A stretch of DNA of 64,000 bases from NCBI GenBank assembly GCA_009746045.1, contig RPFO01000123.1, forward strand, positions 2,239,005 to 2,303,004, written 5' to 3'. Shown here piece by piece: positions 5,271 to 29,040 of this stretch. Positions within the stretch are counted from its first letter, which is position 1. The number at the start of each line of letters is the position of its first letter. The stretch is from Mesostigma viride (taxonomy: Eukaryota; Streptophyta; Mesostigmatophyceae; Mesostigmatales; Mesostigmataceae). The translations under genes were made by a program, and so were the position numbers. The notes beneath the pieces were generated by a model, which was not told where the DNA came from, did not search any database, and saw nothing but the letters and a program-made list of their open reading frames with translations.

Positions 5271-6578
5271 GAAAAACATAACAAAAAACGTGGATCTGGG
5301 CATCTGGCAGCAGCGCTATTATACTGGACGCAAATATTTTTTGCTGGTGATTGAAATCAGAATATTTTGCTAGTGATTGTCCGGTCGACAGCGTGTAATC
5401 GGCTGGGTGGCTATGAAGCCTTGAAAACCGAGAAAGTTGAGCACGTTTCTCAAGATGCTGAAAGCAACCAAACTACAATTAGGCCAATGACTGCCCTTGT
5501 CATCGATCCAGCGCAACCTTCGTAGAGCTCTGTCGATCTGTGAGAACATTCGCCTGGTTGGATACTGGCGGAGCTCCGTGATGAACTGTTGTAGAGCTAT
5601 CATGGCGTTTGCATGTTCGAAGCGGGAAAATGACCACGCATGTAAATAGGAACGATTTCCCCATCAGGCTGTCGTGGCGCTCGGGTATGTTGAAACTTGG
5701 GATCGCAGTTCATAGTTGTCAGGCGTACTTCTGTGTTAGAGAAGCGAGTTGGTCAGGACAGTCAACAGGCATTTGATTGCAAATCCTTGCTCATCTTGGG
5801 CCCAAAATGTACACGAAGAAACAACAGTTCAGCTAGGCATTCCAGCAAGAATGACGCACGATATGTCAAGGATCGCATGAGCTACCTGCGCTTCCCCCAG
5901 GTATGGATTCTGGAAAAGGGGGGAAGACGCGACTTTCCATCGACTCGCAATTACCAAATGAGAACTCATTCGGCTTGCAGTCAGACAGCTCAGGCGTTAC
6001 CGTCACTGCAGTCCTCGCGGCTGGCCGCCTTTTGAGGCCGCTGCGCTCGTCGGTTGCTTCGAGGCGCCGTCGAGCATCCAACTTGACCGACTCCCTCTCC
6101 TTTCAAGCGGTCAATGAGCTTATTGCCAAGGATGATGTTACAGCAAGAAGGTAGGCATCGCCCGTGGTCCCCAACACCGACGAGGTATCCCGCCTTATCA
6201 CTGCCTGCATGGTGCCGCAAAAATCACCGTGTCCAACCCGTTGCCTACCATGTTACCCGTCGACGTTAATCACAGACGCGGCTGGGATTAAAGCCCGTCA
6301 CGTCACGTCACCTTCATGCTCACGGCCATTACCTATATGCTGCCACTCGTGGCACCTGCGCCTCTGTAGATCACATCTCTTTCGATTCTCATATAATATT
6401 TCTCTTACCATCTCCCTCACCCTCGCTCCCTCACCCTCGCTCCCTCATCCTCTCTCCCTCACATTGTCTCGCTCACCCTCTCTCCCTCCCATTGTCTCCC
6501 TCACCCTCTCTCCCTCACCCTCTCTCCCTCACCCTCTCTCCTTTACATTGCCTCTAACGCATCCACTCGCCTACGGAC
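5271..6578. other. Intergenic; pyrimidine-rich leader of the downstream gene
   Basis: No open frame here has recognisable content. From about 6395 to 6560 the plus strand is a run of CCCTCTCTCCCTCA-like repeats with no AG dinucleotide up to the ATG at 6579. It could be the 5' leader of the gene that starts there, or a polypyrimidine tract for an acceptor at 6615-6616. Confidence 0.5.
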
Positions 6579-9500
6579 ATGTTCACTATTTCGCGGCACC
6601 TGGGCGCATGCGCCAGGTACCTGGAGGAGCGGAAGGCAATCAGCTTCCAGACGAAGGAGTACCAGGAGCACCCTGACATGGGGTGGATGCCGTCATTGGA
6701 CTTCTACAAGTACCTGGTGGGTCCAACGCCGCCCGCCGGCTGTCTATTATGATGGGAAGTGCTTCATCCGTGGGCAGTGCTTCATCCGTGGGCAGTGCTT
6801 CATCCATCGTCCGTGGGCAGTGCTTCATCCATCGTCCGTGAGCAGTGCTTCATCCATCGTCCGTGGGCAGTGCTTCATCCATCGTCCGTGGGCAGTGCTT
6901 CATCCATCGTCCGTGGGCAGTCATCCAGGCCAGACCCCCCTATTCCGCCCTTTTCACTGTATTGCATTTGTGCTGCGTGTCACTGCTCATGCATTGTGTG
7001 GCCAGGGCTCTCAGTCGCAATCTGAGTGATTTGACCGCGTGTGAGTGGACTGTACTTTGTACATGACGCTATTGGCGAGAAACTGGACTATGCAAGGAAA
7101 CTGGGCCTCGTAGATCAACCCCAAAATTAAATTTGACTAGTGCAATCGACAGATCTCTCAAAGGGAATTCCAAATCTGCCCTCGGGTAGTCGAAGGTCGG
7201 TTTCGGCCCTGGTGATAGTCTTGTTATGAGACTGGCAAAAATGGCTCTTACGTCATTCTCTTACGCCAAGTAAGCCAAAGTCAAGAATGGCAAGTAGGAG
7301 GTGGGGGGGTCTGATCTCAAGTTTAAGTAGCGCAATCGATAGATCTCGGCGAGGGCAGTCAGGATCTGCCATTACAATGCCAAACCACGGTCCAAAAATG
7401 GAACATAGGGGTAAAAATTGTCGGAATCTTATACATTTTGGGCCAAAAATTAATTAATTCGCCAAAATGTACATTTCTGCTACGGTAGTTCAGTTTCTCG
7501 CCAATAGCGTCACGTGTTGTGTGTGATGTGTGAACGGTGGGGAGGGAGGGGAGGGAGGGGAGGGAGGGGAGGAATGGAGGGAGGGAGGGAGGGAGGAGGG
7601 AGGGAGGGAGGGAGGGAGGGAGGGAGGGAGGGAGGGAGGGAGGGAGGGAGGGAGGGAGGGAGGGAGGGAGGGAGGGAGGGAGGGAGGGAGGGAGGGAGGG
7701 AGGGAGGGAGGGAGGGAGGGAGGGAGGGAGGGAGGGAGGGAGGGAGGGAGGGAGGGAGGGAGGGAGGGAGGGAGGGAGGGGAGGGAGGGAGGGAGGGAGG
7801 GAGGGGAGGGAGGGGAGGGAGGGGAGGAATGGAGGGAGGGAGGGAGGGAGGGAGGGAGGGAGGGAGGGAGGGAGGGAGGGAGGGAGGGAGGGAGGGAGGG
7901 AGGAGGGAGGGAGGGAGGGAGGGAGGGAGGGAGGGAGGGAGGGAGGGAGGGAGGGAGGGAGGGAGGGAGGGAGGGAGGGAGGGAGGGAGGGAGGGAGGGA
8001 GGGAGGGAGGGAGGGAGGGAGGGAGGGAGGGAGGGAGGTTAAAGGGCTTAGGGGAATGGCCATATTTGTGCCGTAGCCTGGTGTTCCAGTAACGATGCAT
8101 ACATGGCCGCATTGTTTCCTGCACACAGCGCCACACTAAGTGCCCCTATGCCTGACCACCCACCCATCCCATACCCGCTAATCAACCTGTAATCATGCCA
8201 AGCATCCACCTGCCATATGTCCACATGCATCCACGCCCATGCATCCACCTGCGGTCCATGCACCGACCATGCATCCGCCCACCACCCGTCCACCCACCCG
8301 GACGCACAGGCCGTCAACCCGATGGAGGAGGCAGAGAACGAGGTGGGGGTCAGTGGCACGGCCAAGGACGGGACCCCAAGTTGCGTGCCACCGCCGTCAC
8401 CACACCTGCAGCTGCGCATGCCCACGACAGTCATCATCAACGGTTTCGATGTGAGTAGAGAGGATGCATGGGTGGCCAGGTTGTGTCATCATGAACGGTT
8501 TCGATGTTAGTAGAGAGGATGCATGGGTGGCAAGGATTTGTCACTGTTGGCGGCTCGGGTATGAGTAGAACGGATGCATGGGTTGGCAAGGATTTGTCAC
8601 TGTTGGCGGCTCGGGTATGAGTAGAACGGATGCATGGGTTGGCAAGGATTTGTCACTGTTGGCGGCTCGGGTATGAGTAGAACGGATGCATGGGTTGGCA
8701 AGGATTTGTCACTGTTGGCGGCTCGGGTATGAGTAGAACGGATGCATGGGTTGGCAAGGATTTGTCACTGTTGGCGGCTCGGGTATGAGTAGAACGGATG
8801 CATGGGTTGGCAAGGCGTGTTATCAATCACGATTCTCATGGGATTGGGAAGCATGCGTCTTCGATGGCTCCCGATCGGGGATGGATGTACCTTCATAGGG
8901 GCGGATGCGTGACGAATGACAGCGTAAACGCGCATGCGACGGATGTCTATTGTACAAGATGGCCTGATAGCTGGTTGTGACATGCCCCTGCGTGCCGCTG
9001 GAATACAACCTCCCAGCATGCGTGCCTCCAATACAGGCTTCGGTATAGCCCCCCTGTACATGCCCTCATACATAGTCATACATAGGCCTCCGTTATCATG
9101 ACCGTGGTAGGCCCTTATCATACTCATGTGGATACATAGGCCACTCATGTCTGCCAGCACATCAAAAACATTGTCAAGCACATCCACGAAGATCTCGCTG
9201 CCATCCTGTGTGAGCATGGGCTGGAGAGAAGGTTGCGTGCGAAAGCTCTTGTGGGCAGGTGTAGTAGTTGCATGCCAAGGCTCTAGTGAGCATGCAGCTG
9301 GCTGCAGCCGCTTGTGTGTCAGGACGCGTGCTGGCCTTGTTGTAGTAGTATATACAATCATACTGTCATCAAATGTGTGGATGTGTCCCTGCTTGTGCAA
9401 TGATCATTTACCATCAGGCCTTCTTTCGTGGCTGCAACTGCCCCTGCAACTGGCTTGCCTTGTGTCGCCCTTGAGGCGTCCTAGTGCTTCTGGGCCGCAG

Positions 9501-12500
9501 CAAGTTGCGTGGTTGTTGCGTGGTTGTTGCGTGGTTGTTGCGTGGTTGTTGCGTGGTTGTTGCGTGGTTGTTGCGTGGTTGTTGCGTGGTTGTTGCGTGG
9601 TTGTTGCGTGGTTGTTGCGTGGTTTCTTGGCCACAGGCAGTGCTGAGTCCTGTGTTTCCAAATGACATACACTGGCACAGTTGCTTTGCTGCACGGCTTT
9701 GCTGACTGGGTGCTGCGACTGCCTGTGGCTTGTGCCCTCCCCCACTCGGACGCCCCATTCTGTTGGCGTGCCGCCCTGCAGGTCCAGTGCTACTACACGA
9801 GCGAGGAGGGCTATCTGATGCGCAAGGACGACATGCCCACCGTCGCAATGTGCGAGCGGATCGTGCCTCGGTGGGTCAGTGATTCGATTAAGGTTTTCGT
9901 TACCAGTGGCGCTAGGCCACTTGTGGCGTTTCGAACTATGAAAACTTCAGTTTACTCGGCCAATGTGTGGCTTTAAGCCAATTAAAATTGGGCTTGGCAC
10001 GGCCACGTGTGGCGGGCTGGCTTTTTGGTGCGGCAAATGACCCTGCCGGCAGCGGGGTCAGCGCGGCGCGGCGCCGTACTGGCTGTACACAAGAGGATTT
10101 TCCTACTTGGTAAATTAACAACAACGATTACTAGTGCCGAAAGTCGAAACACATTAGGCTGGGTTTATACGAACTTTTATTAAAAAGGTACGGGCATAAA
10201 TTTACACGTGGACGGCTCCATCTAGCCAATTTTTCATCTTGCGGTGCTCCTCGAGGCAAGCCATCACGGCGGGGATCGATGCGGCCGTAGCAAGATCGGA
10301 TCGCGTAACGCCAACGTAACTCCCATAACCGCCCGAGAATCTGGCCGTGGAACCGCTGTGTACGAACTGGGTACGGCAGTACCTAGTTCACGTTAAAATG
10401 GGTCCGATTTTTAATAAAACGGCGTGACGGGGTGTGCACCTCCGGAGGGGTCTGTTAAAAATTACCGACCTAGTCGGTAATAGCCCTAGTAGATACCATA
10501 CCGACCTAGTAGATAAATAAACCTAGTCAATGCAGTATGGCTGGCGAGTGACTTATTAATAGCTGAGGCGCCAGGCCGGCGGCCGCCAGCCAGCTGAAGC
10601 CTGAAAAGTGAAAATGCACACAAGCTGCAGTCTGCACAGTGCACTCTGGTCTCTGGCAGCGGGCCACTTGCCACTTGGCACTTGGCCGGGCTCTTGGCCA
10701 TGCACTATGCAGTCAGTATGTCAGCCAGTCATAGTAGTACTCATAGTAGTAGTCTAGTACTAGGGAGGCTTGTGGCGGAACGCCGGCCGGAAGACCGGCT
10801 GACACCGCCAATTGTGGCGTAACCTGTACTAGAGTGAACTTCAGGCACGGCCACCCTGTGGCGAAACGAAACTACAAAGTAGAACAGCACGGCCAAATTG
10901 TGGCTTCTTGGGAGCCCTGTCAAAGTGGGTGGCACCGCCACATTTTGCCAACAAAAGTGCCACACCGCCACATTTGGCGGCATATCGCCACTAATCGAAA
11001 CACTGTGGTGGGTGCACACCTGTTTGTAGCATGCGGGGCGCGGGCACATGCATGGTATGCTAGCGAGAAGTGTCCTAGTGGAATGGATGCCCCGGCCATG
11101 TAGCGCTCTGGTGTGCGCCTACCGATGGCCAGGCCGTCACACTGGGATTCTCAGGCAGGAGTGCCCGGGTGGTTGCTGAGCAAGTGTCACGCATCAGTGC
11201 TTGCTACAAAGTGCACAGGCACTGGCAACAGCACAGGCGCGCTGTGCCTATTCCTCCCTTTACGTCATGATGCCCAATTAGGACTATCAGGGTGTCTCAT
11301 GGCTGGCTTGTTATTGTTATTTCTTTCCCGCATGGCTCCAGCATAGCTGGTTTGTTATTCTTGTCTCTGTCCCTCATGGCTCCGGCATAGCTGCCTTGTT
11401 ATTCTTATCTCTTGCCCGCATGGCTCCAGCCCCTGTTTTGCCCCCCTTGTGACGTGGGCAGCTGTGGGCCGCATGACGTTCGCGGCGTGGCAGCGCATGC
11501 TCTGCCTTGTTGGTTCTTACAGTGCATGCACTGGCTGGCTTCATTGTGGGTGCTGCAGGGGCATGGGACTGGGAGCCGACGGCACGCCCGTGGCCATCCT
11601 GAAGTACCAAAAGGTGAGTGCTAACCTCTGCCATGCACAACCAGCAGTACATGGCATGGCGACAAGCACAGCATGGGGGTTTGCCGGTTTCTGTTGCTTG
11701 TCTAACTTGTGCAGTAATGAATGCGCGCCAACCAGGTGGTACGTAGGGCGACATTTCTGGACACAAACCATTATTGCCTGGTCCTCTTGCACTAGCTTGT
11801 AATCGACTCAAACTTGCAACACACTTTGGAAGTCGATATGCTAAACAGTCGCGCCAGTTTGCTGTAGCTGTAGGGCTTTGACAGGCGCTCCCCGATCATC
11901 TATGCAGTGTGTTTTTGCCAACCACATCGCTCTAGTTTAACCCTTTGCTGGCGTGGTTGGTGCTATGCTGTTTAGGATGTACGTTGTAGGGTCAAGTTAA
12001 GGGTACAGGGTCCATGAATGCCAGCACACAATAACGCTTGCTGCGATGGCCTGTCTGCAGACACGTGCACGCCAGCCTCGATTCTCTGCCACTCCCATCT
12101 TCTGCCACTCCCATTTCCTGCCGCCCCTCTTGTCCGCTGCCCCCAGTGTGTACTGCCCCTACTGCCTGCCCTGTGCCCCATATCTAGGGAGCAACAACCG
12201 GGATTAGGTGTGGTGCGGGAGCCAATTATCCTCCCTTTCTCCGGCTATTTTCCTGCCCCTCCCCCGGCTTGTCCCCCTCCCAGGGCCGCGGCAAGCACCA
12301 CCTGAACCTGATCCAGCACCACGACCTGCAGCGCCAGCTGGAGACGGCGCGCCACACGCAGAGCCTGTGCGGTGTGCAGCAGTACATCGACTGCCAAGGG
12401 ACCAAGGTAGGCAGCAGCATCGATCATGTCTGCCTTCCCCCCCACTCAATACCCCTCTTCTTCCATGAGCCCACCGATCAGCATGCGCGCGCTGCCCACC

Positions 12501-15500
12501 CAGCTGCATGCGCTGTGCACCCACCTGCTCACGTGCGCGCTGCCCAGATGGACCACTCAGAAGCATACAGCGCCTTGGAGTTGTCCGGGATGCCCTATGT
12601 GGACCAGCCCCAACTTACGTGGGAGAAGCATTTGCACAGCTGTTGGCAGCACGGCGTTTTCTATGTTGTCGACAATCATGCCTCGTGCGCTCGTCACAAT
12701 TTCCCGGTCAACAGCGCAGCATGGGCCCACGGCACCGATCAAGGCAGGGGTGATGTATCATCCACATGAGTGCCCAGTCAAAAGCGCACGCAGGATTGAA
12801 AGACTCACACGTACAGGAGCTGGCAATCGCTGCGGTGTGCATTAATTGTCTTTGTGTCCAGCTTGAATGAGTAATAAATAATTACATATGAAGTAGCTGC
12901 GTATGATGACTTTAGAAGGGTCGATTTGGTTCCATGGAGCAACCTGGCAGGGCCCTTGTAACCGTTCCTGCCCCCGCCTGGGCATGCGCTTGTAATGTGG
13001 TGGGTGCCCTGTGGTGGGTGTCGGCGGTTCGCAGGTCTGCGTCGCTCGGCTGCACTGGAAGGCGGACAACAAGGGATGCATGGTGAGTGGGGCTCTGGTC
13101 CACGGGCTGTCGTAGTCATTGGCGAAATACAGTTGTTGGCCCATGGCCTGTGGCTTGCCCTACCTTGGGAGGTTATCGCAGGCAGTGGCACAACTCATGT
13201 GCGCGCAACACTTGGCGACCGCCTGCTGCCACCGCCACATATGTTCATGCAAGATGGGACGCTGCGTCCTTGCTGCCACGTCCTGGCAAAAGAACCCACA
13301 AAAACCCGAGCAAACTTTCTTTGAACTGCCTGCTCCGGCATCCGAGCTGCCTTGAAGCACCATGACGCTTCTGTTAGACCTATTATCCATTCCTTAATCC
13401 ACTCATAAACTGCTAATAAGGGCTTGCTTCCCCTCCAACCTGCCTACTCTCCTCTCCCCGTCCGCCCATGCCGCTCTTCCCCCTTCCCCCCTACCCTCTC
13501 CACCCCTCTCCCCAGGTGTACAAGATCACAAACGTAGCGGGCAAGGTGCTGGGTGGCGAAGAGCTGTCGCAGCGCAAGGCCAGGCTGGCCGCCGAGAGCA
13601 AGCCCACGTTCTACCAAACACAGGTCGGCCCGCCACCTGGCGACGCGTGGGCCACGCACGTGGCGCTGCCCAGCCAGGTGTCTGGCAGCACGCTCTCGGC
13701 CTCACTACCCCGCAGCATGGCGTCCCCTAAAGGGCCTGCCACCATGGGGGGCACGTTCTCGCGGGCCAACTCCCGGCTGTACAGCGGGGGAGCTAGGCAG
13801 CCTCGTTCGGTCCCAACCAGCCCGCATGGCCGAGGCGGTCGGTTCGAGTTGGAGCTGGGCAGCGAGTTTGGTTTCGGCGGGTCGCACGCGCGGGATGCCG
13901 AGGACGGGGATGCGGCGGCGGCGGCGTGGGAGGACAAGAAGATGTTGGCGGTGACCGCGGACAATTACGTAACAAACCACCTGGTGAGCACCCTTGTCTA
14001 CTGCTAACCGCCACGTCGCCAACCACTGGGTGAATAGGACAAGCTACATCCTAGCGCAGGTAGAAAGTCACATCACCAAACGTGTGGAGGGTGCCTGTGC
14101 CAACGATCACGTCAACAACTACGCGGTGCAGGTACGATCACGTCAACAACCCTGCGGCGAATGGCAGTGCACATATCTCATGCGCCCGTGGTGGGGTTGG
14201 CAGTGGGTATGGCGGTGACTTCGATTTGCCCACCACACAGGGTCACATCCGCCGTAGGGGCTGGGGCGCTCTCTGTTGACTCTGCGAGTGCGTATTGAGG
14301 TGTGTGGACATGTGGTAGCAAAGCTGGCAGTATAGGCTCAAGGTGCGAACCAGAACATCAGGAAATCAAGTTTCAGACATGAGTGGCTGTTGCCTTGAGC
14401 TTCCTCGCCCCATGCGTGGCTGCTTGGATTTTGCGGCACAGCTTTCAAGCCAGAAGAGCAAGCCATCACAAGATGAGTGTGCTTCACATATTTTTTTTAC
14501 ATATTCAGGTTCCCCTGCCTGGTCATTCCTGCCAGGGCATGATCCTGCTCACCTCCCCTCGCTCCCCCCTTTCCCTCTCCCCCCTCTCCCCCCCCTCCCC
14601 CCCTTCCCGAAAGTACCGGCGCATCTTAGCGTTCATTCACGACTGCTTGCCAGCAAACGCTTTTGTTCAGCCGTTCCCTCCTTCACTGTCGTGCACGTCG
14701 GATGTGACGCACCCTGGTGATGCTGCAGGCGAGAGGCGCGTGCTGGAGCTTGTATGCGACACACCGCTTGACGCGGTGGACCATCCTTGAAATGCACACC
14801 GGCTGATCCCCCCCTCGTTCATTTTGTTGCGTCATGCAACCCCTCTGTGTGGGTGGCCGTGCCGCGGTTTGCTGTATGTGGCAGCTTCTGCATGGGGTGT
14901 CCATCACCAAAGTCAGCGCGGGCGGCCGACTGTGGCAGGAGCCAATGGTGGGTGCCGCCATCCATGCGTGCAGCAGTGGTTGCCACCATCCCGCCCATGA
15001 GGGCGGGTTGACCACTTGATGTATGGGTCGCACAGTTTCCTGCATGGAGCCACGCCTTCACTATCCAGCCAACACATCCTGAGGGATCACGCAAGGAGCT
15101 CGCAAGGACAGCCCCTGTACCTTGTACCCAGGCTATACGTGGGCGGCACAGCAGCGATCGCTGCCTGCCGATACGACGCGTGCGATAATGTTCACCGCTA
15201 CCCGTGACGTACATGAGCATTTGTCCACCGAATCATCTGAATGTGCATGCGTACGGCTCACCCACTGCATTCCCTGGCCACACGCATCCCCGTGCATCAA
15301 CCGCAGCATCCCCATGGAAGCGCATCATATGGGCAGGGCCTCTCTTCCTTACTTGGGATGTGCAAGGCTCCCTGAAGGGAACATATTCTAAAATTTGCTT
15401 GCACTATGTCAATGTCCCCTCGGATGTGTGTTCGTGATCGTGGTGCTACCGGCTGCCATATGGGCATCCAAGCACTAACCTCTTGTCCACGGCAGTGTTT

Positions 15501-18500
15501 GCGTGTGTTCATGGGGGGCTCTCGACATGGTGCAGGAGATGACGCAGCGCATGGTCCGCTACGTGGACCGCCGCCACCTGGCACGACATGGGCGCCGTAT
15601 CCTGGAGCTTGTGGCGGACTTCATCAAGGACACACATGGCGTCTGGTGGTTTATCGAGGTAAGGCTCACAATGTGTCGGGTGGTTTATTGAGGTAAGGTG
15701 GTGATTTGTTCCGGTGAAGATGGCACAACGTCTGGTGTTTTCTTATCGAGGTGAAGGGAGGCGCCGGCCGTGCCGTGCTCACCCTGGGAAGGCACGCGAA
15801 GGAATAAGTGGATGAATGGATTGCCTAGCAACGCAGTTGAGCTACCCCTCACTTGGGCAGTCGACTGACAGTTCCTGTCCGCCCCTGGAACGTTTCATGG
15901 TGGCTGCACGGAGGCACCTGCGATTGGCCAGAAATGTGGCAGCAGCAGGCACCTCTGCTCCTATCCTTGGCGCAAGTGGAATGGCCACCACATCCTGTCC
16001 TACTTCGGCCTAGCATGCCTTTGTCTGCCACGGTGCATGTCCGTGACCTGTGTTATCCATCACTAATGGATGGTTTATGTTCCTCCTCGCTCCTCCCTCT
16101 GCCGCTTGTCACTTCCAACTGACGCCCATATGTGCAATCATGATGTAGGGCAGGGTTGCACGCTGGGGCTGTACCCTGCTGTGAGCTCCCGGTGGGCTGC
16201 CCTTCCAGGTTGGCGAGTGGCGGTGTCATTTATCCCGTGCGATCACCACTCGGATCATGGTGCAATGCTCGTCGCTCCGTCCCTGAGGTCTCCCTTCTTG
16301 AGAAGTTTCCTCACTCTACTTGGCAGCACAAGGCTTCTTTGCGTGCATGCTGGTTTGTTATCTCGTGCCGGCCCTGAAAGCACTATACTCCACCCCTTGC
16401 GAATTCATACGTACGAAGCTTATTCGGTTCTACGCGGGCGTGGCTGTTTGGTCGTGGCAGGTGAAAGCATTTATTCTCTCAGAGCCCGTACAACGAGTGC
16501 GGCCGCCCAAGCCGGGCCCCCCCCTGCGTCGCAAGGGCTGTTGCGGCGACTATTGCTTTGCGCTGGAGGCTCTGCAAGAGATCTTGGCGCAGCAGGTGGG
16601 TCAGGGGGAGGGTGGGGCCAAGCATTGGTGCTGACACAAGCAGAGTAGATGTTAGCACCTGTGGCTTGGGATGGGGAGGAACCGCCATGCAGGCGGCCAC
16701 CCCATGGGATGGATTGGCCTTGTCCAAGAAGAATGACTTGAGGAAGCGGCATGGAGGGGGAGGGGAGGGAGGGGAGGGGAGGGGAGGGAGGGGAGGGGAG
16801 GGAGGGGAGGGAGGGGAGGGGAGGGAGGGGAGGGGAGGGAGGGGAGGGGAGGGGAGGGGAGGGGAGGGAGGGGAGGGGAGGGAGGGAGGGAGGGGAGGGG
16901 AGGGAGGGGAGGGAGGGGAGGGAGGGGAGGGGAGGGGAGGGGGGGAGGGAGGGGAGGGGAGGGGAGGGGAGGGAGGGGAGGGGAGGGGAGGGGAGGGGTT
17001 GGGTGGATATGGCCCAAGGGGGGAGGATCTCTGAGCTGTGAGATACTTCTGGTGGGAGGTATATTTTGTGCTACAAGTAATACTGTAGCATGTGTGAAGG
17101 GGTTGCCTTGACAAGCTCCAGGGGAAGCACCACGTTGGTAGACCTGCAATGTGGTGGGGACACGCTCATACTCCACGCCATGGGATGGTGACCTTGTGTT
17201 GGATGCAGCGTATGTTTTCTTGAAAAAGCTCTACTCCCTCGTTGGTAGTAACACGTTGTGCCCCTGCTGACCCCTGTCGCATTGCTTCTGCTGAGATTAG
17301 CAAATAAACGTTCCTACCCGATGGATCGTGGCGCTGAGTCGCATCTGGGACGAAGCACCGTCGTGTGCATCGAGTGTTCAAGCAGTGTGCATGCCTGTAC
17401 CCCGTGACTTTCCCAATGGCGGCTATTCCATGGATTAATGAATGCTCGTACTATATAAAGAGCGCGGATGCCCTTTTGTGCATACTATTTTGTGCATACC
17501 CTTTTGTGCCTACCGTGGGGAGCCGGGCTACCGCAGGAGAATGTGCCTGCCCTTGTCATGCACTAGCGTGCGCGGCCATGTGGCTACCGCAGGAGAATGT
17601 GACTGCCCTTGCCATGCACGAGCGTGCGCGGCCATGTGGCCACCGCAGGAGAATGTGCCTGCCCTTGCCATGCACGAGCGTGCGCGGCCACGTGGCCACC
17701 GCAGGAGAATGTGCCTGCCCTTGTCATGCACTAGCGTGCGCGGCCATGTGGCCACCGCAGGAGAATGTGCCTGCCCTTGCCATGCACGAGCGTGCGCGGC
17801 CATGTGGCCACCGCAGGAGAATGTGCCTGCCCTTGCCATGCACGAGCGTGCGCGGCCATGTGGCCACCGCAGGAGAATGTGCCTGCCCTTGCCATGCAGG
17901 AGCGTGCGCGGCCATGTGGCCACCGCAGGAGAATGTGCCTGCCCTTGCCATGCACGAGCGTGCGCGGCCATGTGGCCACCGCAGGAGAATGTGCCTGCCC
18001 TTGCCATGCACGAGCGTGCGCGGCCATGTGGCCACCGCAGGAGAATGTGCCTGCCCTTGCCATGCACGAGCGTGCGCGGCCATGTGGCCACCGCAGGAGA
18101 ATGTGCCTGCCCTTGTCATGCACTAGCGTGCGCGGCCATGTGGCTACCGCAGGAGAATGTGCCTGCCCTTGTCATGCACGAGCGTGCGCGGCCATGTGGC
18201 TACCGCAGGAGAATGTGCCTGCCTTTGTCATGCACGAGCGTGCGCGGCCATGTGAACACCACCACATGCATCTGCGCACTCGGTGCGTCCATGGCCCTGC
18301 ATGCGCTGCCAAGGCATGCACGCGCATGCCATTGTCACATGATACCACCAAGTCTAGTTGTGTCATGTACACAGGCACGTACTCTTATACACACACACGT
18401 ATGCTGTCTCAATTTCCGCACGATGGTGCCCCTGCCTGCTCCTTCTCAAGGCGCCTTTGTGCTTTGTGCTTTCCGCGCGGGCTGCCGCGTCTGCCCGCCC

Positions 18501-21500
18501 ACTCGCATGGTCGTGCACCCCCCTGCAGGAGCAAACGGTGGGGGACCGACCCAGTCGCCCCCAGAGCGCGGGCCAGGGGGGCCACCACCCTGCGGGGGCC
18601 CAGGGGGGCCACTTGGGTGCGGACGCCAGTGGTGTCGAGACGCTGGACGCGCCAGGGGAGGAGCGGTACAGCGTCTCGTTCCGCGTTATTGTGGAGGACC
18701 GCTGCCACACAGATGAGATGAGCCGGCCACAGTGGTGGGTGACGGAGGCAGTGATGGGGGATGGGGCAGATTAGCCGGCCACAGTGGTGGGTGACGGGGG
18801 GCAGTTGCGGGGGATGGGGAGCAGTGGTGGGTGGTGAGGCCGATGTAGCAGGTAACAGTGCGCAGTAGTAGGTGTGATGGCGTGCCGTGGAGGGTGGCGG
18901 CTAGTACGATCCAGGACATGGCGCCCAGGCATCCATGGTGGGTGGGTGGGCACACGAGGGCCGAGTTTACAGAAGACAGGGACACGCAGGGGTGGGTGAC
19001 TGGTTGCAGGAGCGCTGGCACCGAAGGGAGAGGGGTAGGTGGTTCGTCCAGTACAAGGCAGGAAGAGCAGTCCCCTGTGATGGGGGACGTGCGGGACAGG
19101 AAACAGTTCACCATATTGTTCTGTGTAAGGGGAGTAGGAGGATATCACACCCAAGCAGCAGCGGTAGCCAGCGAGCGAGCTCATGGGGGTGCCCCGCCTT
19201 CGAACTGTACAGTCCGGAGGTTGCAATGAGGCAGGACTCTTATGGGTGCTCTGCCATGCAAGGGAGGCATTGAGGAGCCATTGGGGACCGGTCTCAGGAA
19301 CCGTAGGGCAGCCGGTTGGCCCCTTGCCTGCATGGCTGGCCCCTTATCCCACCATCGCAGCTCATGGCTTGCGGAGGCCTGTGCCCCCTTTTTCCCCCTT
19401 GTCATGTTACACACTCATGGTCTTGATTGTCTGCTGCCCCCTGTCTTGATTGTCTGCTGCCCCCCAACAGGTACTACTGGCAACCAGCTCCTGACCACCA
19501 CCCGAGCGAGGGCCACTGGGTTCCTTACGGAGAGGAGCCCAATCTGATCATCGAACGCGCGGTGGCCATGTCACAGACACACGCCAAGGTGGGTGGGTGG
19601 GGGGCTGATGTTGCAGGCACATGCGATGGTGGGGGGTCAACCTGCCTACTTCGGCGATACTAGAATATCGTGTAGGTCCGTGCGTAGTACTCCTGCGCAC
19701 TTAGGTCTAGTGGTGAGTCATCTTCTATAGATTCAGCAATATCGGACATATTGGCACCCCTCTCCAATAAAGAGGTTTTTCGCAGTTGGGCTGTTTTGAA
19801 ACGTTAAGTGAGATGCCTTCGGATCAGGAGACTCACACAGCCGCGAAATCATGCCAAAGGTCCTATGTTCGATTCCTTGCTGGTAGCTTCTAGGCTTTCG
19901 TACTTTCTGTGTTCCGCGGAATCTCAGATTTGGGCAGCTAGCGTTTTCACGTTTGTTGCTTTCTGACGACGATGCGATGGTGGGGGGTGGCGCTGATTGC
20001 TCACACACATGCCAAGGTGTGGGGGGAGGGAACCTTGCGCACAAATGCTAAGGTGGCTGGGAGGCTGATGTTGCAACCACACGCCAAGGTGTGTGTGGAG
20101 GGCCAAATTGTCACGCACACGCCAAGGTGCGTGGCGCAGGCAGTTACTCAAAGGTAGGGGAAGGTGGGGGGTGGGCGAATTCAGCAAAGACATTTAACAC
20201 TAAGGTGGGGGAAGGGATAGTCGCTGGTTGTCTCACCGACGGCTGCACGTGCCCAAGCAAGCAGGTCCTCCAGCATGTCGCTTGGTGGGGGAAAAGAGTA
20301 GTGAACTGCGAGCCGGGCCCCAGTGCTTGGCTCGCCCACTTGCCATCTACCCATAAGGCATCACAGGCTTCTACCCACTTCCCATTACGCGGTACCCATC
20401 AGCCTGCATCCGCCCTGGGTGCTGTGCGAAGGGGGACCTTGTGCTTGCTGCCCTAAACCTGTCAGAAAGCCAGCCGGGCAGAAGTGAGGTGTTGGGTTGC
20501 GAGCATGTCTTAGAATAAAGTGATTTGTATTCCTAGAGGCAACATGGTGGAAATGATTCATCACCCCACCTGCCCCTTAGCCGACGTGGGACAGTGTCTT
20601 GTTTAGGTTAGCACAGGGTAGGCAGGGTTGTTCACAAGTCGCACAGCCATGAGTGAATATTTTCATCAAGGCATCAGCCAGCATGGCCCTGTTCATGGTG
20701 CGCGTTTGACCTCGTGCCTGCCCCGTCCTCTGGTGATGTGACGCTGACAGTCGCGTGCACGGCGTTCGTATATGGTGTGTGCGGTTTCCCCGCGATTGCA
20801 TCTTTGCACTTGTGCTTGCAGCTGACACCAAAGGTCAGCATCTCCTTCAAGGCCATGCAGCAGGTGAGAGTCCTCTATCACGCCTGCATCTTCGCTTTCA
20901 TGTGGTCTATCCGGCAGGTCCTGCCAGGGCTAACGTGCAACATGTGCGGCCGTGAATGCGAGCGGCACTTCGCAAGGGGGAACAGGGAGGGTCTATCCTA
21001 GACCAGCTACCGCTGGCTTCCACCACTCGACTCCACCGCTGGGTTCCGCAACGCCCATCGAGTAGTGGGTGTTACATCATGGGCACGTATTCGGTGGGAC
21101 TCCTGTGCCGTCCCATCCCCCTCCATGCATTAGGACAACTCCAAGGAGTGCGAGGTGTTTCTGGGTAGAATGAGGCGCTTTTCGGGCGGTAGGAGCGCAC
21201 ACTAGTGGGCCCACTCACATGCACGCACCGGAGGGGGGTGCTTTTCGTTGCTTGTGTGTTGCAACCAAGAAGCTTCACCCAAACCATTTGTTGTGACCTG
21301 TCATCATTTCACGCACCTTTCCAACATTTTGATACTCCTAATAGAATGCAAGATGTGGACGCCCCCTGGGGGCTAGAATGGCGTGTATAGCCCTAGCTTG
21401 TATCCATTGGTAGTCACTGCCGCTATGGCAGCCATGCTTAGAATGTTTGCCCAGCTGTGCCACCATACCTAGTCACGTGCACCGCTAGCGCACGGTACAC

Positions 21501-24500
21501 AACCAGCCATAGCCTTAGCTTAGTCCTTGTACAGCCATGCTACGTCCTGGCTACGCTCAGATTACTTGCCCACGCTCCTTGTTGTTCGATATGCTCACAC
21601 GGCTCTTATTGCACCCACAGATCTTGCCGGATCGTTTACCGGGTCCGATAGCAGCTGTGGCATGCCTCTGGCATGAAGGAGAAAGGGGGTCTCTGCCCTT
21701 TCTTCCTGTTGTGCACACACAGGGATTAAAAGCACTTCGGTGCTCCGTGACTCCCCAACGGGAGCACGAATTTAATTAATTAATTAATTAATAGAATGCA
21801 TGTGTAGAATGTGGGAACCAAGAGTGCTGGCCACACCTAGGGCATATCAGTGGCTGCAGCAAACCTGGCAACCGGGGTCGCGCCGGTGGCTGTTGGAGGG
21901 TGTGCGGGGTGGAGTCGGAGGAAGGCACCCCGCCCAAACTCCCATGCAATGTTAGGGGTCCCAGTTGTTGTGCTGGCCCAGCATCTGGGCCAGGCCTGCC
22001 CTATGTTTGCCTGCAACATGGTGGTGGGCCCGAGATGCTTGCACCCGATGACGTCAGATCGCAGGCACGTGACCTCTGGAGGGGTAGGATTAGAAACGTG
22101 GATGGGCGAGGGTGGCCATGCTGCCAACCATGCCCAACACAGTTGGACATGCGTCCGCTGTACCCATGTTGCATGGGGGGGTGGCTTCCGTCGACGCGTG
22201 TGTAAAGGTGCACTTGGGGTTTGCATGCAAGGGGGCGCCACAGCGGATCCCTGGTGTGATGTGGGGTGGGGTGGGGTGGGGTGGGTGTTGGGTGAGGTGG
22301 GTGTTGGGTGAGGTGAGGCCTCTTGGCACCGCACTCCCCATTACAGTTGGCGCTTGCTTCGCCTCCTTTGCCTCCTTTGCCTCCTTTGCCTCCTTTGCCT
22401 CCTTTGCCTCCTTTGCCTCCTTTGCCTCCTTTGCCTCCTTTGCCTCCTTTGCCTCCTTTGCCTCCTTTGCCTCCTTTGCCTCCTTTGCCTCCTTTGCCTC
22501 CTTTGCCTCCTTTGCCTCCTTTGCCTCCTTCGCCTCCTTGGCCTGCTGGCTGCCTGGCAACTTAGGTGCCACGTGTCAGCGTCACGCACACCGTATGCAT
22601 GGGCATCAACCGTGGCTCCAGTGTCCCGTTTCCAGCATCAATAATGCCCACGTTTGGTGCCGTCATTCGTCACGTGCCAACTCATGCCATCATTCACCAC
22701 TTGCCACTACGTGCCACCATACGGGGCGGCCAACTTTTGCCATCGTCTGTCCCCTAACCTCAGTACGAGCTGGGCTCCCACCATTCGACCGACATCAAGC
22801 GCGAGCCGCCGCTGCCCGACACGAGCACCTCGATGGACCGCCCCGCTTCGGCGCACGCGGCGTTCAACGTGAAGCCGACACGGCAGGTGGGTGATCAACC
22901 GGCATTATCCCCTGTGATGCACGACCGGCCCTGATTGCTCCACTTGCGTACCTCATCCCGTGCTGATGGGAGACATCGGTGGGTTTTCCGTGTCAGCACT
23001 CCTTCCCCCAAGGGATCATTTGCCTGTCATCTGCAGTCCAACCGCTGGGGTCTCTACCTCCGTGCGTGTGTGCTGGGTTGCCCTCTGGTGTGCCCACGCT
23101 GACGCCTTCGCGCACATGCCAAGGGGAGAGTTGCCTTTTAAATGTTCTTATCGGGGAGGCACTTTTTCCTTACTCGTGTGTGGAATGACTCAACTGTGTT
23201 TGGTGGCACCTGAGCGCCCATCGCGTGCCCGCATTCAAGGTGCAACTGCTCACTAGGGCCCCACCCGGTTTGGTGGAGCAGAGGGGATGACCCCACGGGC
23301 GATAGCACTTTTGTTGTTGTGTGTATAATGGGGTACATCTTGCCGATGTTACAGGCTATTATAGGCCGCAGTCATGGCCCCGGCAAGGCATGCCCCCCGG
23401 AGATGTGCCGGGGGTTGGTTCCCACCCCACATCCTCAGCTCTCCGCTCAGGTTGGGTGTGTAAGCGGGCACACCTGAAATTGCTTCATCGATTTGCATCG
23501 CACATGCGTGTGCGTGCGTGCGTGCGGCTCCACTGTACAGGTGCCAGCATTGAAGCATCACAAGAACGTGACGTCACTTTACGACATGGTGTGTGCGAGG
23601 CTCTCGGTTGCCCGGGGGGGGGAGGGGTCAGGGAGCGGGGAGGGAAGCGGGGAGGGGAGGGGGGGAGGTGCTAATAGGAGGTGCAAAATGGGGGAGGGAG
23701 GAGCCGATTTTCTCATGCGCTGCCACGTATTCTGCAACCAAGAGTATCCGCGATGCGGCGAGTACATGCCAGGCAACCAAGCGTGCAGGTCCGTGCTGAT
23801 GGCGGCACTTCTGGCTGGTTGGCATGTGTGGGTGGGAGAGAAGGCCGGTGTGCCAGCAATCCTGCACTATCTGCGCGCCGCATCCGTGGTGGCCCCCCTC
23901 TGCACGTCGCGTCCGTGGTGGCCATGATTTCCTGGGGGATTGGCTCCCATGCAGGCGGCCTGGTTGCTACTCCACTGTCACTACATGTAGATGTCGTACA
24001 CAGTTGGCATGCCTTGGTGACACTCCAGTGCCCATCCCCAACGTTTACACCCATGCCTGTTCCCAATAGCTTAACAGGTGGTCGTTCCAATCGCTTATAC
24101 ACGTGGCCATCCCCAACAATTAAACGCTTGCCTCGATTCGGTCCCACCCCACGCCCCTCAGGTCCCCGTCTGCGGCGTCTGTTTCCGCATCTACCTGCAC
24201 AAGGGCAGCGCGGCGCGACACCGGGCGCAGCCACGGTGCGTGCCCTCAGCGGCCTAGAGTGACCTCGGTGTGCCCATGCACCGCATATCCTACCAACGGA
24301 AACATCCTACTAACGGTAGTATACTAGTATCTGTTTGCATGTGTGTACATTTACTCGTATGCACGGATGCCTCAGTGCTGCGCCTTGTGCCTCGGGTGCC
24401 TTTTGCGGCTACGTAGGAAAGGGCGTGATGAGCCCTCACGCAATGTCGCGGCATCACCACATCATAGCATGCAAAGCCCATGCGTGCTACATCCCTTTTT

Positions 24501-25585
24501 TCTCCTTGGCTCTCCTCGTTGGATCTCCTTCTCCCATAGGCTCCTTCCGTCCCTCGTGTGTGCCGTCCTGTGTCCGTGAGGCAAGCGGCTGGCTTGGGTG
24601 ATTTTGCTGCCTGCCTATCCATTGCTCATGTTAGGATGGTTCCACAGTCCTTAAGCCAAGTGTGGAAATTCTCCTTCTTTAGCCAATGTTCATGGCTCAT
24701 GGTAGCCACGGGTCATCCGCGATGCCGGTGGTTTGCGGGCGTATCGTGGGTGGCGACCACCTGCTCCCGGTGTACCTTGGTATGCGGCCGTGCTCCTGTG
24801 CTTGCTGTATACAACCACTCAGGCAGCCGCTCGTGTGGCATTTGTGCAGAGATGGGCACTTGTGCAGGGATGGGCACTTGTACAGAACGCGCTCGCCCAG
24901 GTCTGGGCTTGGCCGGAGCGATGATGGAAGCACCCACCCACGGTCTTTCCAATGGAATTCATGACAATACCAGCACAGGCTTGGCATCGCGAGGATCCGT
25001 GCCACAACACATCACTATAGTATAGTGACCATGTCATCAACCCGACAACCAGCACAGGCTTGGCATCGCGAGGATCCGTGCCACAACACATCACTACAGT
25101 ATAGTGACCATGTCATCAACCCGACAACCAGCACAGGCTTGGCATCGCGAGGATCCGTGCCACAACACATCACTATAGTATAGTGGCCATGTCATCAACC
25201 CGATAACCAGCACAGGCTTGGCATTGCGAGGATCCGTAACATAAGCAGTATGGACGGGTAGCTGTATGGACCAACTGGTTTCAGCTAGGCTTTAAAGCTT
25301 GTTATAATCATGAGCCATGATGCTGATGCTTCCACACTCACGGCTGTCAATCATCCTCTCATACGTGTGTGTGCTGCCATGTGATGCCCTATGTGCAGTC
25401 CTACTGTGTCGCCTAATGGTAGGCACGTGACACCCAGTACCAAGCCGAGCCGACCGAAAAGCCCTGTGAAGCGGGACCAGCTGGGCAAGACCAGCTTCTT
25501 CCTGGGGAACGCTGTGACAGCATTGGACGATACTGGCGCACGGCCCCCTTCTAGGACGAGGAGCTCTTCTTCCGTGGGCATGTGA
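6579..25585 (+). CDS. 17-exon gene for a 729-residue protein with a WWE-like domain
   Basis: Predicted exons: 6579-6716, 8310-8450, 9782-9870, 11559-11613, 12284-12406, 13035-13082, 13516-13983, 14060-14131, 15536-15658, 16461-16595, 18529-18734, 19471-19588, 20822-20863, 22764-22886, 23541-23588, 24162-24235, 25399-25585. All use GT-AG sites, phases match at every junction, and the sum is 2190 bases (730 codons with TGA). I see a segment ending VWWFIEVKAF (residues about 410-425), a CCGDYC cluster, a WWE-like domain (about 530-588), a CGVC segment (about 647) and a Ser/Arg/Pro-rich tail. From memory, the WWFIEVKAF and GDYC segments resemble uncharacterised proteins of flagellated protists; no function is assigned. 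The start is uncertain because an acceptor at 6616 could also open exon 1. The 72-base exon 8 is the least certain, since omitting it keeps the frame. Confidence 0.8.
6754..6925 (+). repeat. 25-bp minisatellite in intron 1
   Basis: About six tandem copies of a unit reading GTGGGCAGTGCTTCATCCAT plus CGTCC; the first two copies lack part of the unit. It starts about 40 bp after the exon 1 donor. The short ORFs beginning with ATG here are repeat translations, not genes. Confidence 0.85.
7064..7512. mobile_element. MITE-like element with 22-bp perfect inverted ends, intron 1
   Basis: Bases 7064-7085 (TGACGCTATTGGCGAGAAAC and two more) recur as the exact reverse complement at 7491-7512. The 449-bp interior has no coding frame, but two internal segments (near 7134 and 7325, sharing GCAATCGAYAGATCTC) are related direct repeats. 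No convincing target-site duplication is visible, so the superfamily is open. Confidence 0.55.
7531..8038 (+). repeat. GGGA/GGGGA polypurine array, about 500 bp, intron 1
   Basis: Nearly pure (GGGA)n with occasional extra G and two GGAATGG interruptions at about 7571 and 7826. The interruptions mark a large internal duplication of roughly 250 bp. All open frames here (GREGGREGG on plus, PPSLPPSL on minus) are artefacts of the repeat. The strand asymmetry could allow triplex or G-quadruplex structures. Confidence 0.95.
8431..8815 (+). repeat. 55-56-bp tandem array seeded by the exon 2/intron 2 junction
   Basis: Seven units. The first holds the last 20 bases of exon 2 plus its GTGAGT donor (8451). 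The second repeats this with GTTAGT. The later units have drifted to a form carrying GGGTATGAGTAG, which keeps a donor-like GTATGAGT. Unit starts are 8431, 8486, 8541 and then every 56 bp. The array therefore places several potential 5' splice sites directly after the true one. Confidence 0.85.
9503..9625 (+). repeat. 11-bp minisatellite (GCGTGGTTGTT)n, intron 2
   Basis: About eleven uninterrupted copies. Because 11 is not a multiple of three, all frames of the array are similar on each strand, and they create the apparent [10 protein letters not shown] and [11 protein letters not shown] ORFs. These are not genes. Confidence 0.95.
9877..11005. mobile_element. hAT-like non-autonomous element inserted at the exon 3 donor
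   Basis: The left end CAGTGATTCGATTA and the inverted right end CAGTGTTTCGATTA match at 13 of 14 bases. The flanks are CGGTGGGT (9869-9876) and TGGTGGGT (11006-11013), an 8-bp target duplication with one difference, as expected for hAT elements. The left duplication contains the exon 3 splice donor (GT at 9871-9872). Subterminal GGC...GTGGCG motifs recur at both ends. There is no transposase frame. Palindromes such as ACCGACCTAGTCGGT lie inside. Confidence 0.7.
13516..13983 (+). other. Exon 7, the longest exon, low-complexity middle region
   Basis: This 156-codon exon begins [14 protein letters not shown] and then becomes rich in Ser, Gly, Ala, Pro and Arg. It has an acidic stretch ([16 protein letters not shown]) before ending TNHL at a GTGAGC donor. 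The composition suggests a disordered linker between the N-terminal part and the VWWFIE segment. Antisense and shifted frames over this exon are shadows. Confidence 0.7.
14103..14150 (+). repeat. 17-bp duplication across the exon 8 donor
   Basis: ACGATCACGTCAACAAC occurs at 14103-14119, inside exon 8, and again at 14134-14150, just after the donor at 14132. The offset is 31 bp. This is one of several cases in this gene where exon-end sequence is repeated past the splice donor. Confidence 0.75.
15640..15757 (+). repeat. Repeated exon 9 end plus donor in intron 9
   Basis: The exon 9 end GGTGGTTTATCGAG with donor GTAAGG (15659) is followed by GGTGGTTTATTGAG-GTAAGG (donor-like GT at 15693). A third copy reads GTCTGGTGTTTTCTTATCGAG-GTGAAG (GT at 15751). 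Offsets from the true donor are 34 and 92 bp. Confidence 0.75.
16751..16998 (+). repeat. GGGGAGGGA polypurine array, intron 10
   Basis: About 250 bp of G-rich polypurine with mixed 4- and 5-base units, more irregular than the intron 1 array. Open frames across it on both strands are repeat artefacts. Confidence 0.95.
17521..18253 (+). repeat. 56-bp minisatellite, about 13 units, intron 10
   Basis: The unit begins CACCGCAGGAGAATGTGCCT and ends GCGCGGCCATGTGGC. Units differ by a few transitions. The 56-bp period shifts frame each copy, and the unit lacks stops in several frames, giving spurious ORFs of 424, 318 and 253 codons on plus and 187 on minus. Each unit carries a CCGCAG-G acceptor-like site. 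Confidence 0.92.
18721..18845 (+). repeat. 52-bp duplication of the exon 11 end and donor
   Basis: AGCCGGCCACAGTG-GTGGGT, where exon 11 ends at 18734, recurs at 18773 with the same GTGGGT. A shorter GCAGTGGTGGGTGG copy follows near 18821. The unit also includes the start of intron 11. Confidence 0.8.
19638..19971 (+). mobile_element. 334-bp SINE-like insertion with 17-bp target duplication, intron 12
   Basis: ATGCGATGGTGGGGGGT occurs at 19621-19637 and 19972-19988, exactly flanking the insert. Inside are GGTCTAGTGGTGAGTCA (near 19707), which resembles a Pol III A box, and GTTCGATTCC (near 19866), which resembles a B box. They are about 160 bp apart, too far for a simple tRNA, and the T arm does not pair well. 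A long target duplication of this kind fits target-primed insertion by a LINE enzyme. Confidence 0.6.
19990..20210 (+). repeat. 36-38-bp array of exon 12 end plus donor copies, intron 12
   Basis: Exon 12 ends CACACGCCAAG with donor GTGGGT (19589). Downstream, CACATGCCAAG-GT (20017), AAATGCTAAG-GT (20053), CACACGCCAAG-GT (20089), CACACGCCAAG-GT (20127) and ACACTAAG-GT (20205) repeat it. The intron start GGCTGATGTTGCA (19602) is also repeated at 20063, so the unit spans the junction. The SINE-like insert separates the array from the true donor. Confidence 0.78.
21348..21421 (+). mobile_element. Short LINE-B ORF1-end fragment in intron 13
   Basis: GTGGACGCCCCCTG, GGGCTAGAAT, and AGCTTGTATCCATTGGTA followed by GTCACTGC match the segment at 58951-59021, just after the ORF1 end of LINE-B, with few differences. 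No duplication flanks it. Confidence 0.6.
21729..21793 (-). mobile_element. Hairpin/TTAA mini-element, copy in intron 13
   Basis: Read on the minus strand: a TTAA run, then CGTGCTCCCGTTGGGGAGTC and ACGGAGCACC. The same core occurs at 28175-28196 and 61888-61913. In this copy the far side has AAGTGCTTTTAATCCC instead of an ATGG tract. Confidence 0.65.
22352..22540 (+). repeat. 9-bp minisatellite (CCTCCTTTG)n, intron 13
   Basis: About 20 copies. The period is a multiple of three, so every frame stays open (FAS, PPL, LLC on plus; KEA, RRQ on minus), which explains several overlapping ORFs. It lies wholly within intron 13 and is not coding in the spliced model. Confidence 0.95.
24970..25240 (+). 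repeat. 79-bp tandem repeat, 3.4 copies, intron 16
   Basis: Units start CCAGCACAGGCTTGGCATCG at 24970, 25049, 25128 and 25207, nearly identical. Each contains the small palindrome ACTATAGTATAGT or a one-base variant. Confidence 0.9.
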
Positions 25586-28157: not shown

Positions 28158-29040
28158 ATTTGACTCATGCCATGGCTCCCGTTGGGGAGTCACGGAGCAT
28201 TAACCCCGATCGATGGATGGATGGATGGATGGATGGATGGATGGATGGATGGATGGATGGATGGATGGATGGATGGATGGATGGATGGATGGATGGATGG
28301 ATGGATGGATGGATGGATGGATGGATGGATGGATGGATGGATGGATGGATGGATGGATGGATGGATGGATGGATGGATGGATGGATGGATGGATGGATGG
28401 ATGGATGGATGGATGGATGGATGGATGGATGGATGGATGGATGGATGGATGGATGGATGGATGGATGGATGGATGGATGGATGGATGGATGGATGGATGG
28501 ATGGATGGATGGATGGATGGATGGATGGATGGATGGATGGATGGATGGATGGATGGATGGATGGATGGATGGATGGATGGATGGATGGATGGATGGATGG
28601 ATGGATGGATGGATGGATGGATGGATGGATGGATGGATGGATGGATGGATGGATGGATGGATGGATGGATGGATGGATGGATGGATGGATGGATGGATGG
28701 ATGGATGGATGGATGGATGGATGGATGGATGGATGGATGGATGGATGGATGGATGGATGGATGGATGGATGGATGGATGGATGGATGGATGGATGGATGG
28801 ATGGATGGATGGATGGATGGATGGATGGATGGATGGATGGATGGATGGATGGATGGATGGATGGATGGATGGATGGATGGATGGATGGATGGATGGATGG
28901 ATGGATGGATGGATGGATGGATGGATGGATGGATGGATGGATGGATGGATGGATGGATGGATGGATGGATGGATGGATGGATGGATGGATGGATGGATGG
29001 ATGGATGGATGGATGGATGGATGGATGGATGGATGGATGG
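28150..29040 (+). mobile_element. Hairpin core joined to an 829-bp (ATGG)n array
   Basis: The sequence AATTAATTTGACTC, a CTCCCGTTGGGGAGTCACGG core and AGCATTAACCCCGAT precede about 207 uninterrupted ATGG units (28212-29040). The same core followed by GATGGATGG occurs in the 132-bp insertion at 61801-61932, so the array looks like a hugely expanded tail of that mini-element. The junction is abutted by the LINE-B fragment. The WMDG/HPSI ORFs here are repeat artefacts. Confidence 0.75.

Follow-up and report, generated by a model that had tools for sequence, protein, structure and literature searches.

Local tandem duplication of splice-site-containing AGGT segments, with the protein left unchanged, has been described as a route of intron gain (PMC4974935, in the part of the text available), and the insertion of introner-like elements is named in the same text. 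The copies of exon ends and donors analysed here, in introns of the single-celled green alga Mesostigma viride, an early-branching streptophyte, share with the former the local duplication of a splice site and the unchanged protein; they differ from the system as described there in that the intron pre-exists and keeps its own acceptor, no new intron was seen, and the copied unit, exon end plus donor, is repeated at the intron start. In the Mesostigma sample, no second copy was encountered that had provided a new intron with its acceptor AG. Introners are characterised by one sequence common to many introns. The Mesostigma copies are likewise recurrent sequence in many introns, but what is copied in each case is the end of the intron's own preceding exon, and comparisons between introns within a locus gave 0/634 sense and 0/634 antisense matches at a score ≥17. 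In Chlamydomonas and Volvox, tandem repeats are enriched near intron ends (PMC3887541, again for the part of the text available). These too are green-algal tandem repeats near intron–exon junctions, but their enrichment runs towards both intron ends and exon-derived units go unmentioned in that part of the source, whereas the Mesostigma units contain exon and occur at donors, with an edge that is focal within the exon. Degenerate arrays of variable copy number are also known from minisatellites; in ordinary minisatellites the breakpoints are unrelated to a splice site, whereas the left edge of the Mesostigma repeats is focal relative to a functional one. Among the titles and abstract openings listed by searches of the open-access literature, no precedent for donor copying was found.

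The window is the whole 64,000 nt stretch of M. viride DNA that was analysed. Its host gene, Mv13996, was modelled by spliced alignment of protein P0001 (Mv13996-RA.2, 780 aa), in which every aligned residue was identical; a WWE domain was detected in the draft translation (Pfam, E = 3.7e-6), and PF02825 is precomputed for P0001. Intron numbers used here are those of the initial annotation plus one (its 2, 7, 9, 11 and 12 correspond to 3, 8, 10, 12 and 13). The features concerned are as follows.

5903..25582, + strand: Mv13996, the host gene, encoding a WWE-domain protein in 17 exons with 16 introns (spliced alignment of P0001)
8310..8450, + strand: exon 3, the final 21 nt of which open the intron 3 array
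8430..8815, + strand: intron 3 array (TRF), 55–56-bp units spanning the exon end and the donor at 8451
8506, + strand: first copy donor of the intron 3 array (copy at +55)
13984..14170, + strand: first part of intron 8, where the end of exon 8 recurs in weak, degenerate copies; covers 14103/14134
15626..15770, + strand: end of exon 10 with donor 15659; donors of the copies at about 15693 and about 15751 (+34, +92)
18716..18819, + strand: exon 12 end with donor 18735 and one copy, its donor at 18787 (TRF; period 52, +52)
19564..20215, + strand: exon 13 end and array, donor 19589, six copies over threshold
near 19629, 19980, 20017, 20053, 20089 and 20127, + strand: copy donors of intron 13
19638..19988, + strand: insertion of about 350 bp splitting the intron 13 array, by direct reading of the sequence

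Donors of Mv13996 were assessed by SW score against dinucleotide shuffles, with p = 0.003 as the floor of the test. On the P0001 model, four of the 16 introns gave strong scores for copies of the exon end with its donor, each at this floor: intron 3 (donor 8451; SW 29 vs a null of 8.5), intron 10 (15659; 20 vs 8.8), intron 12 (18735; 28 vs 10.6) and intron 13 (19589; 19.5 vs 9.0). One more, intron 8 (donor 13984), was weak (11 vs 8.6, p = 0.045–0.06), with a single over-threshold copy at +142. None of the 16 acceptors fell under p = 0.08. Of the six introns that the initial annotation had listed, four are strong and one weak, and the sixth is not an annotated intron: P0001 has no splice site at 14103/14134, which lie inside intron 8 (13984–14884) and by eye resemble additional, degenerate copies of the region around donor 13984. 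The seven 55–56-bp units it had reported for intron 3 do form an array, in which one copy passes the threshold and, by eye, the exon end is well preserved in the first two of about seven units only. The insertion in intron 13 is flanked by a 17-bp direct repeat (19621–19637 and 19972–19988). For Mv13996 alone the excess is not clear (a score ≥19 is reached at about 10% of random intron points vs 4/16 donors), so that significance rests on a wider intron sample.

This sample comprised 64 introns drawn from 14 gene loci: for 43 of them an exact annotated protein was at hand, and 21 belonged to kinesin loci spread over 11 further contigs, which were picked blind to repeats and whose boundaries were inferred. 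For M. viride NIES-296, 24,431 genes are annotated (PMC6947507). The main cut-off was a score ≥15, the lower one ≥13. As plain coverage counts every unit of a long array, a 'first unit' configuration was added, in which a like-for-like count requires a copy downstream and none upstream. Kinesin introns were left out where the boundary was not found (L032-1, L034-2, L037-3) or weak (L036-3), or where the exon hits were non-adjacent (L029-3, L037-2, L032-3, L035-2, L036-1); among the last group, L029-3 scored 19 at the donor and L037-2 24 at the donor and 28 at the acceptor, and L032-3, L035-2 and L036-1 gave no donor match.

At the main cut-off, copies were found at 18/64 donors vs 1/64 acceptors (Fisher P = 2.2e-5), at the lower one at 22/64 vs 5/64. 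Copying of exon end and donor is therefore real and extends beyond Mv13996. Counted like for like, 16/64 donors carried copies, where random points within introns would give 2.0–3.3 (P = 1e-10 to 1e-7), M3 intron 5 and intron 13 of the WWE gene being the donors that failed this count; by plain array coverage, 18 donors stood against 4.8–7.1 expected (P = 7e-7 to 2e-4). The pattern was replicated in the kinesin loci (8/21 introns). The rate varied by gene, from 6/17 introns in M3 to 0/10 in PP2A, and donor copies were absent from 7 of the 14 loci. Copies on the acceptor side exist (L030 intron 1, score 16; L037, where an ill-placed acceptor scored 28 and was not counted), and a shuffle p ≤ 0.03 was reached at the acceptors of M3 introns 6 and 17, L028-2, L030-1, L031-2 and L034-1; the initial claim that the duplication recurs at donors only was thus nearly right. 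A link to intron gain through AGGT duplication, which had also been drawn, finds no support, given the rarity of acceptor-side copies and the range of the donor copies, none of which lay beyond about 600 nt at a score ≥17 (0/33 introns; at ≥14 there was one, at offset 629).

In a position scan, matches peaked at the donor (18–19 of 62–63), and no window with its centre at −30 or beyond on the exon side gave any (0 of 59–63). Left edges of the repeats fell at −36..−8 in 19/63 introns, with a peak from −28 to −13, vs 0/63 at −100..−37 and 1/63 at −4..+29; this count used a 24-nt window and omitted one intron <250 nt, and with that window L031-4 and L033-2 (score 14 earlier) were gained and L030-1 was lost. 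The exonic part of the copies had a median of 23 nt, was unrelated to the offset (rho = −0.10) and was narrower than in all 20,000 draws with uniform breakpoints (16/18 introns, WWE 13 and L030-1 being left out of this null). Within the first 600 nt of the same intron, sense copies with a score ≥17 were present in 17/64 introns and antisense copies in 0/64. Some introns contained head-to-tail units (8430–8815 of the window by TRF; L030-2 and L031-2 by eye), others short copies separated by unmatched spacer. Exon ends derived from the arrays, rather than copied into them, were considered and rejected: the M3 exon ends encode residues aligned with thimet oligopeptidase, and the kinesin exons concerned fall inside the kinesin profile.

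The reading we favour, and hold to be probable, is that functional 5′ splice sites guide a duplication process acting locally, whose products then expand in minisatellite-like fashion and are tolerated as the first donor wins. A bias towards 5′ splice sites, already suggested in the initial annotation, fits best because the left edge of the repeats is focal. In M. viride the process would home on functional 5′ splice sites and copy a stretch from about 23 nt (range 8–36) upstream of the donor to between 5 and at least 47 nt into the intron, the copy landing in the same orientation and the same intron, tens to hundreds of bases downstream; repeated events and slippage would then turn some copies into degenerate minisatellite-like arrays. 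With the exon unharmed and the first donor presumably still in use, the copies would be tolerated, and most likely they are a by-product, not a device. Within this sample, the preference for donors, the placement in cis and in sense, the focal left edge and the lack of copies at donor-like motifs other than splice sites are shown, as is, for two annotated genes, a protein structure that follows the first donor. We infer that the process is mutational rather than a matter of selective retention, and its guide would be transcription or splicing, for example through switching of template in the course of repair where a polymerase pauses, an R-loop forms or a spliceosome is bound. Some units are ordinary whole-unit tandem repeats.

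Rather unlikely, in our estimate, are ordinary tandem duplications occurring genome-wide, with those at donors tolerated because the first donor wins, those at acceptors purged, and exon-bearing copies recognisable for longer because the exon is frozen. Tandem repeats are abundant in these introns, acceptor copies would create upstream AGs that are likely to be used, and 1/64 acceptors is not clearly under the 2.3–2.7 expected. Tolerance cannot, however, lift donors 5- to 8-fold over free intron sequence in the like-for-like count, or 2.5- to 3.8-fold in terms of coverage; few arrays open immediately within the intron, and the size of the exonic part is independent of the offset. Recent copies (score ≥25, like for like) were in equal excess (9/64 donors vs 0.62 expected, P = 1e-8), so that easier detection beside a conserved exon is no explanation.

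Selection for the copies, as extra downstream U1 sites that reinforce exon definition or serve as decoys, appears improbable, although the state of the copied donors speaks for it. GT was retained in 16/18 best copies of the wider sample and in 21/24 copies of the first set, in line with the initial remark that copied donors are often intact, and +5G in 23/24 of the latter; junction Gs were kept in 66/68 cases vs 58.4 expected (P = 0.0006), and junction bases in 97% vs 87% for nearby exonic bases (Wilcoxon P = 0.004), which hints at selection acting on copied donors. Positions −3..+6 were better preserved than the remainder (P = 0.0001 under uniform divergence), a test that presumes full-length units; short copies would depress the outer positions too, and copies of one array are not independent of each other. 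Against selection, a U1 site needs about 9 nt and not 23 nt of gene-specific exon, and these introns already hold 147 donor-like motifs (PWM ≥5) unlike their own donor region. Decoy donors, as initially proposed, are possible.

Doubtful is a more specific form of the guided process, in which the copied stretch would mark the region that the splicing machinery occupies on the nascent transcript, with repair of a break or stalled fork in the transcribed intron templated locally by spliceosome-bound nascent RNA or by the DNA that it holds open. Its short form would correspond to about 23 nt of exon plus about 5–12 nt of intron, and 5′ splice sites would be written back into the genome by splicing, in cis and in sense.

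That the copied donors yield alternative, mostly NMD-targeted transcripts which tune expression is very unlikely. Such transcripts would be in keeping with 15/18 best-copy offsets that would be frame-shifting and with copied donors that often equal the originals in strength, but the annotated proteins of both copy-bearing annotated genes (10 introns) stop at the first donor. Alternative exon ends, another of the initial suggestions, are disfavoured at the protein level by these proteins, by the frame-shifting offsets and by M3, which on alignment with thimet oligopeptidase showed no insertion at 5/6 copy junctions (introns 3, 5, 6, 14 and 15; the sixth, intron 1, lies outside the alignment). 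At the RNA level, too, the first donor probably wins. Slippage of DNA caused by the donor-like sequence itself (AGGTRRGT, G-rich) can practically be dismissed, since for all the tendency to a higher G content at +11..+60 after array donors (0.36 vs 0.30, P = 0.09) arrays were present at 0/43 equally strong intronic pseudo-donors (PWM ≥8) and at 4/147 with the cut-off at PWM ≥5.

If the favoured guided duplication acts genome-wide, it would be a mutational process positioned by RNA splicing instead of by DNA sequence, and it would supply many natural tests of how the spliceosome chooses among tandem 5′ splice sites that are nearly identical. With duplicated donors in mammalian laboratory work, the downstream one is often favoured, and the question is raised why the upstream donor would win in Mesostigma. 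Through such copies, introns of an early-branching streptophyte would also grow and acquire latent alternative donors.

Introns from the gene finder, which over-predicts, were kept out of all counts. Donor copies were seen in 0/5 introns of a predicted p23 and 0/2 of a predicted L24 gene (both named by eye). A protein search with joined peptides returned PP2C alone, and the PP2C gene is without introns. Among the dubious predictions A, G, H, J, L and B, which were likewise uncounted, donor scores of 22 (A, intron 1) and 38 (G, intron 3, G-rich) and an acceptor score of 22 (L, intron 3) were obtained.

The product of the host gene matched jgi/Mesvir1 Mv13996-RA.2, a protein with a WWE domain, and alignment of this annotated protein back to the window (C1602:2239005-2303004) gave 17 exons and 16 introns with all aligned residues identical; according to PMC6947507, the Mesostigma viride NIES-296 annotation was built from ab initio, homology and transcript evidence. 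For each intron, a query made of the final 30 bases of the exon and the opening 12 of the intron was aligned with the next 600 intron bases, with dinucleotide shuffles as controls, and acceptors were tested by the mirror procedure. Copies of the exon 3′ end and its GT donor (donor copies), reported at six introns in the initial annotation, were strongly recovered in introns 3, 10, 12 and 13 and weakly in intron 8 (numbers one higher than in that annotation, whose own eighth intron matches no annotated intron). No acceptor of this gene was significant against the shuffles. Since some 10% of points drawn at random within introns reach a score of 19 as well, Mv13996 by itself is not decisive. Further features of the window were:

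19638-19988: ~350-bp insertion within the intron 13 donor array, lying between two direct copies of a 17-bp sequence (19621-19637 and 19972-19988) that resemble a target-site duplication
23541-23588: open 48-nt segment (16 residues) with GT/AG flanks, absent from the annotated protein, a possible cassette exon
28208-29040 and 36550-36818: long (GATG)n runs with an open frame that reads as WMDG repeats
~32769-33705: ORFs of identical sequence on opposite strands, which suggest an inverted repeat of retroelement ends

The sample was extended to 64 introns from 14 gene loci of one genome. Flanking contig DNA (260 kb, two stretches of which are N) supplied two multi-exon neighbour genes with annotated proteins, P0003 (M3 peptidase domain, 17 introns) and P0006 (PP2A B subunit, 10 introns). 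At a score of at least 15, donor copies were found in 6/17 introns of the M3 gene and 0/10 of the PP2A gene, and acceptor copies in neither, two M3 acceptors having a shuffle p of 0.02. The splice sites of the 43 introns of these three genes are very strict (+5G in 43/43 donors, −3C, as CAG, in 43/43 acceptors), and a splice matrix trained on them was combined with profile adjacency to place kinesin intron boundaries in 11 compact stretches on 11 contigs, taken from a whole-genome kinesin profile search and selected for closely spaced exon hits. Among the 21 placeable introns, 8 had donor copies and one an acceptor copy; the donor copies in intron 2 of locus L030 and introns 2 and 3 of L031 were perfect across 20–35 nt. 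Two regions hit by the kinesin profile, C622:17600-21400 and C2:6330541-6334132, share five exon hits of equal score at near-constant spacing (2-base difference) and are likely a haplotig or recent duplication; intron 2 of this gene (L029) carries a donor copy.

In the pooled sample, donor copies were present at 18/64 introns and acceptor copies at 1/64 (Fisher P = 2.2 × 10−5), and at a lower cut of 13 the counts for the 64 introns were 22 and 5 (P = 4 × 10−4). Donor hits exceeded acceptor hits in 7/14 loci and fell below them in none. The earlier impression that duplication recurs at donors only is thus nearly correct, with one kinesin acceptor copy in the main count. At L037 (exon C1:12877450-12877614), a perfect 28-nt copy on the acceptor side, 71 nt upstream of the exon start, was left out of the count; such acceptor-side duplication is rare.

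A copy downstream with none upstream was seen at 3.1% of 9,800 random intron points (with the mean per intron bounded above at 5.1%). Under this like-for-like rule 16 donors qualified against 2.0–3.3 predicted (P = 10−10 to 10−7); when any array coverage was counted, 18 were found against 4.8–7.1 expected (P = 7 × 10−7 to 2 × 10−4), and for near-identical copies (score at least 25), 9 against 0.62. Equally strong donor-like sites inside the same introns had copies at 0/43, and 4/147 did when weaker sites were included.

When the test window was slid across the junction, hits numbered 0/59–63 at centres −30 or further upstream of the donor, 18–19/62–63 at 0 and +10, and 7–9/57–61 from +42 onward; around acceptors they were 0–3 at every position. 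The first repeated base lay at −36 to −8 in 19/63 introns (16 of them at −28 to −13), at −100 to −37 in none, at −4 to +29 in one and at +30 to +131 in 12, with none shown in 31. The exonic part of the copy (median 23 nt, IQR 19.5–27.3, range 8–36) was independent of offset (34–537) and far narrower in spread than under uniform breakpoints. The intronic match was just 5–12 nt in 10/18 copies, including L031 intron 2, where a full 88-nt repeat visible by eye was shortened by the method; other copies were whole-unit tandem repeats.

Random duplications passing a purely tolerant filter cannot account for these data, since tolerance can neither raise donors 5- to 8-fold over intron sequence in the like-for-like count, nor leave equally strong pseudo-donors untouched, nor set an exonic edge; either a process recognising the functional donor or strong selection on the copies is needed. 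Selection is hinted at by the copies themselves, whose junction bases are better conserved than the adjoining exonic bases. In an initial set of 12 introns every copy was scored; 11 of these introns held 24 copies over threshold, and GT was retained in 21 and +5G in 23, bearing out the description of copied donors as often intact. Selection nevertheless leaves 23 nt of gene-specific exon unexplained, and we therefore favour duplication guided by transcription or splicing. Such guidance would direct duplication to the functional donor and act in cis, with slippage coming afterwards. At scores of at least 17, copies were sense only and confined to their own intron, with none antisense, none beyond 600 nt and, whether sense or antisense, 0/634 when the remaining introns of each locus were compared. 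The exon junction complex lies at about −20 to −24, close to the exonic edge of the copies. This proximity is the basis of, and not evidence for, a bolder reading, in which the copied stretch would be a footprint of the splicing machinery written back into DNA in cis and sense. No precedent for the pattern appeared among the titles and abstract openings listed by searches of open-access papers.

The proposed alternative exon ends were not borne out at the protein level: the annotated proteins of both copy-bearing genes (10 introns with copies) end their exons at the first donor. Thimet oligopeptidase aligned with the M3 protein, over a region that begins beyond intron 1, with no residues inserted where introns 3, 5, 6, 14 and 15 interrupt the gene, and use of the best-copy donor would change the reading frame in 15/18 introns. 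The M3 protein itself (P0003/Mv13993, C1602 minus strand, ~2119591-2095905) has GKLGI in place of the thimet oligopeptidase zinc motif HEFGH and is therefore probably catalytically dead; it also carries an N-terminal extension of ~640 aa within one exon.
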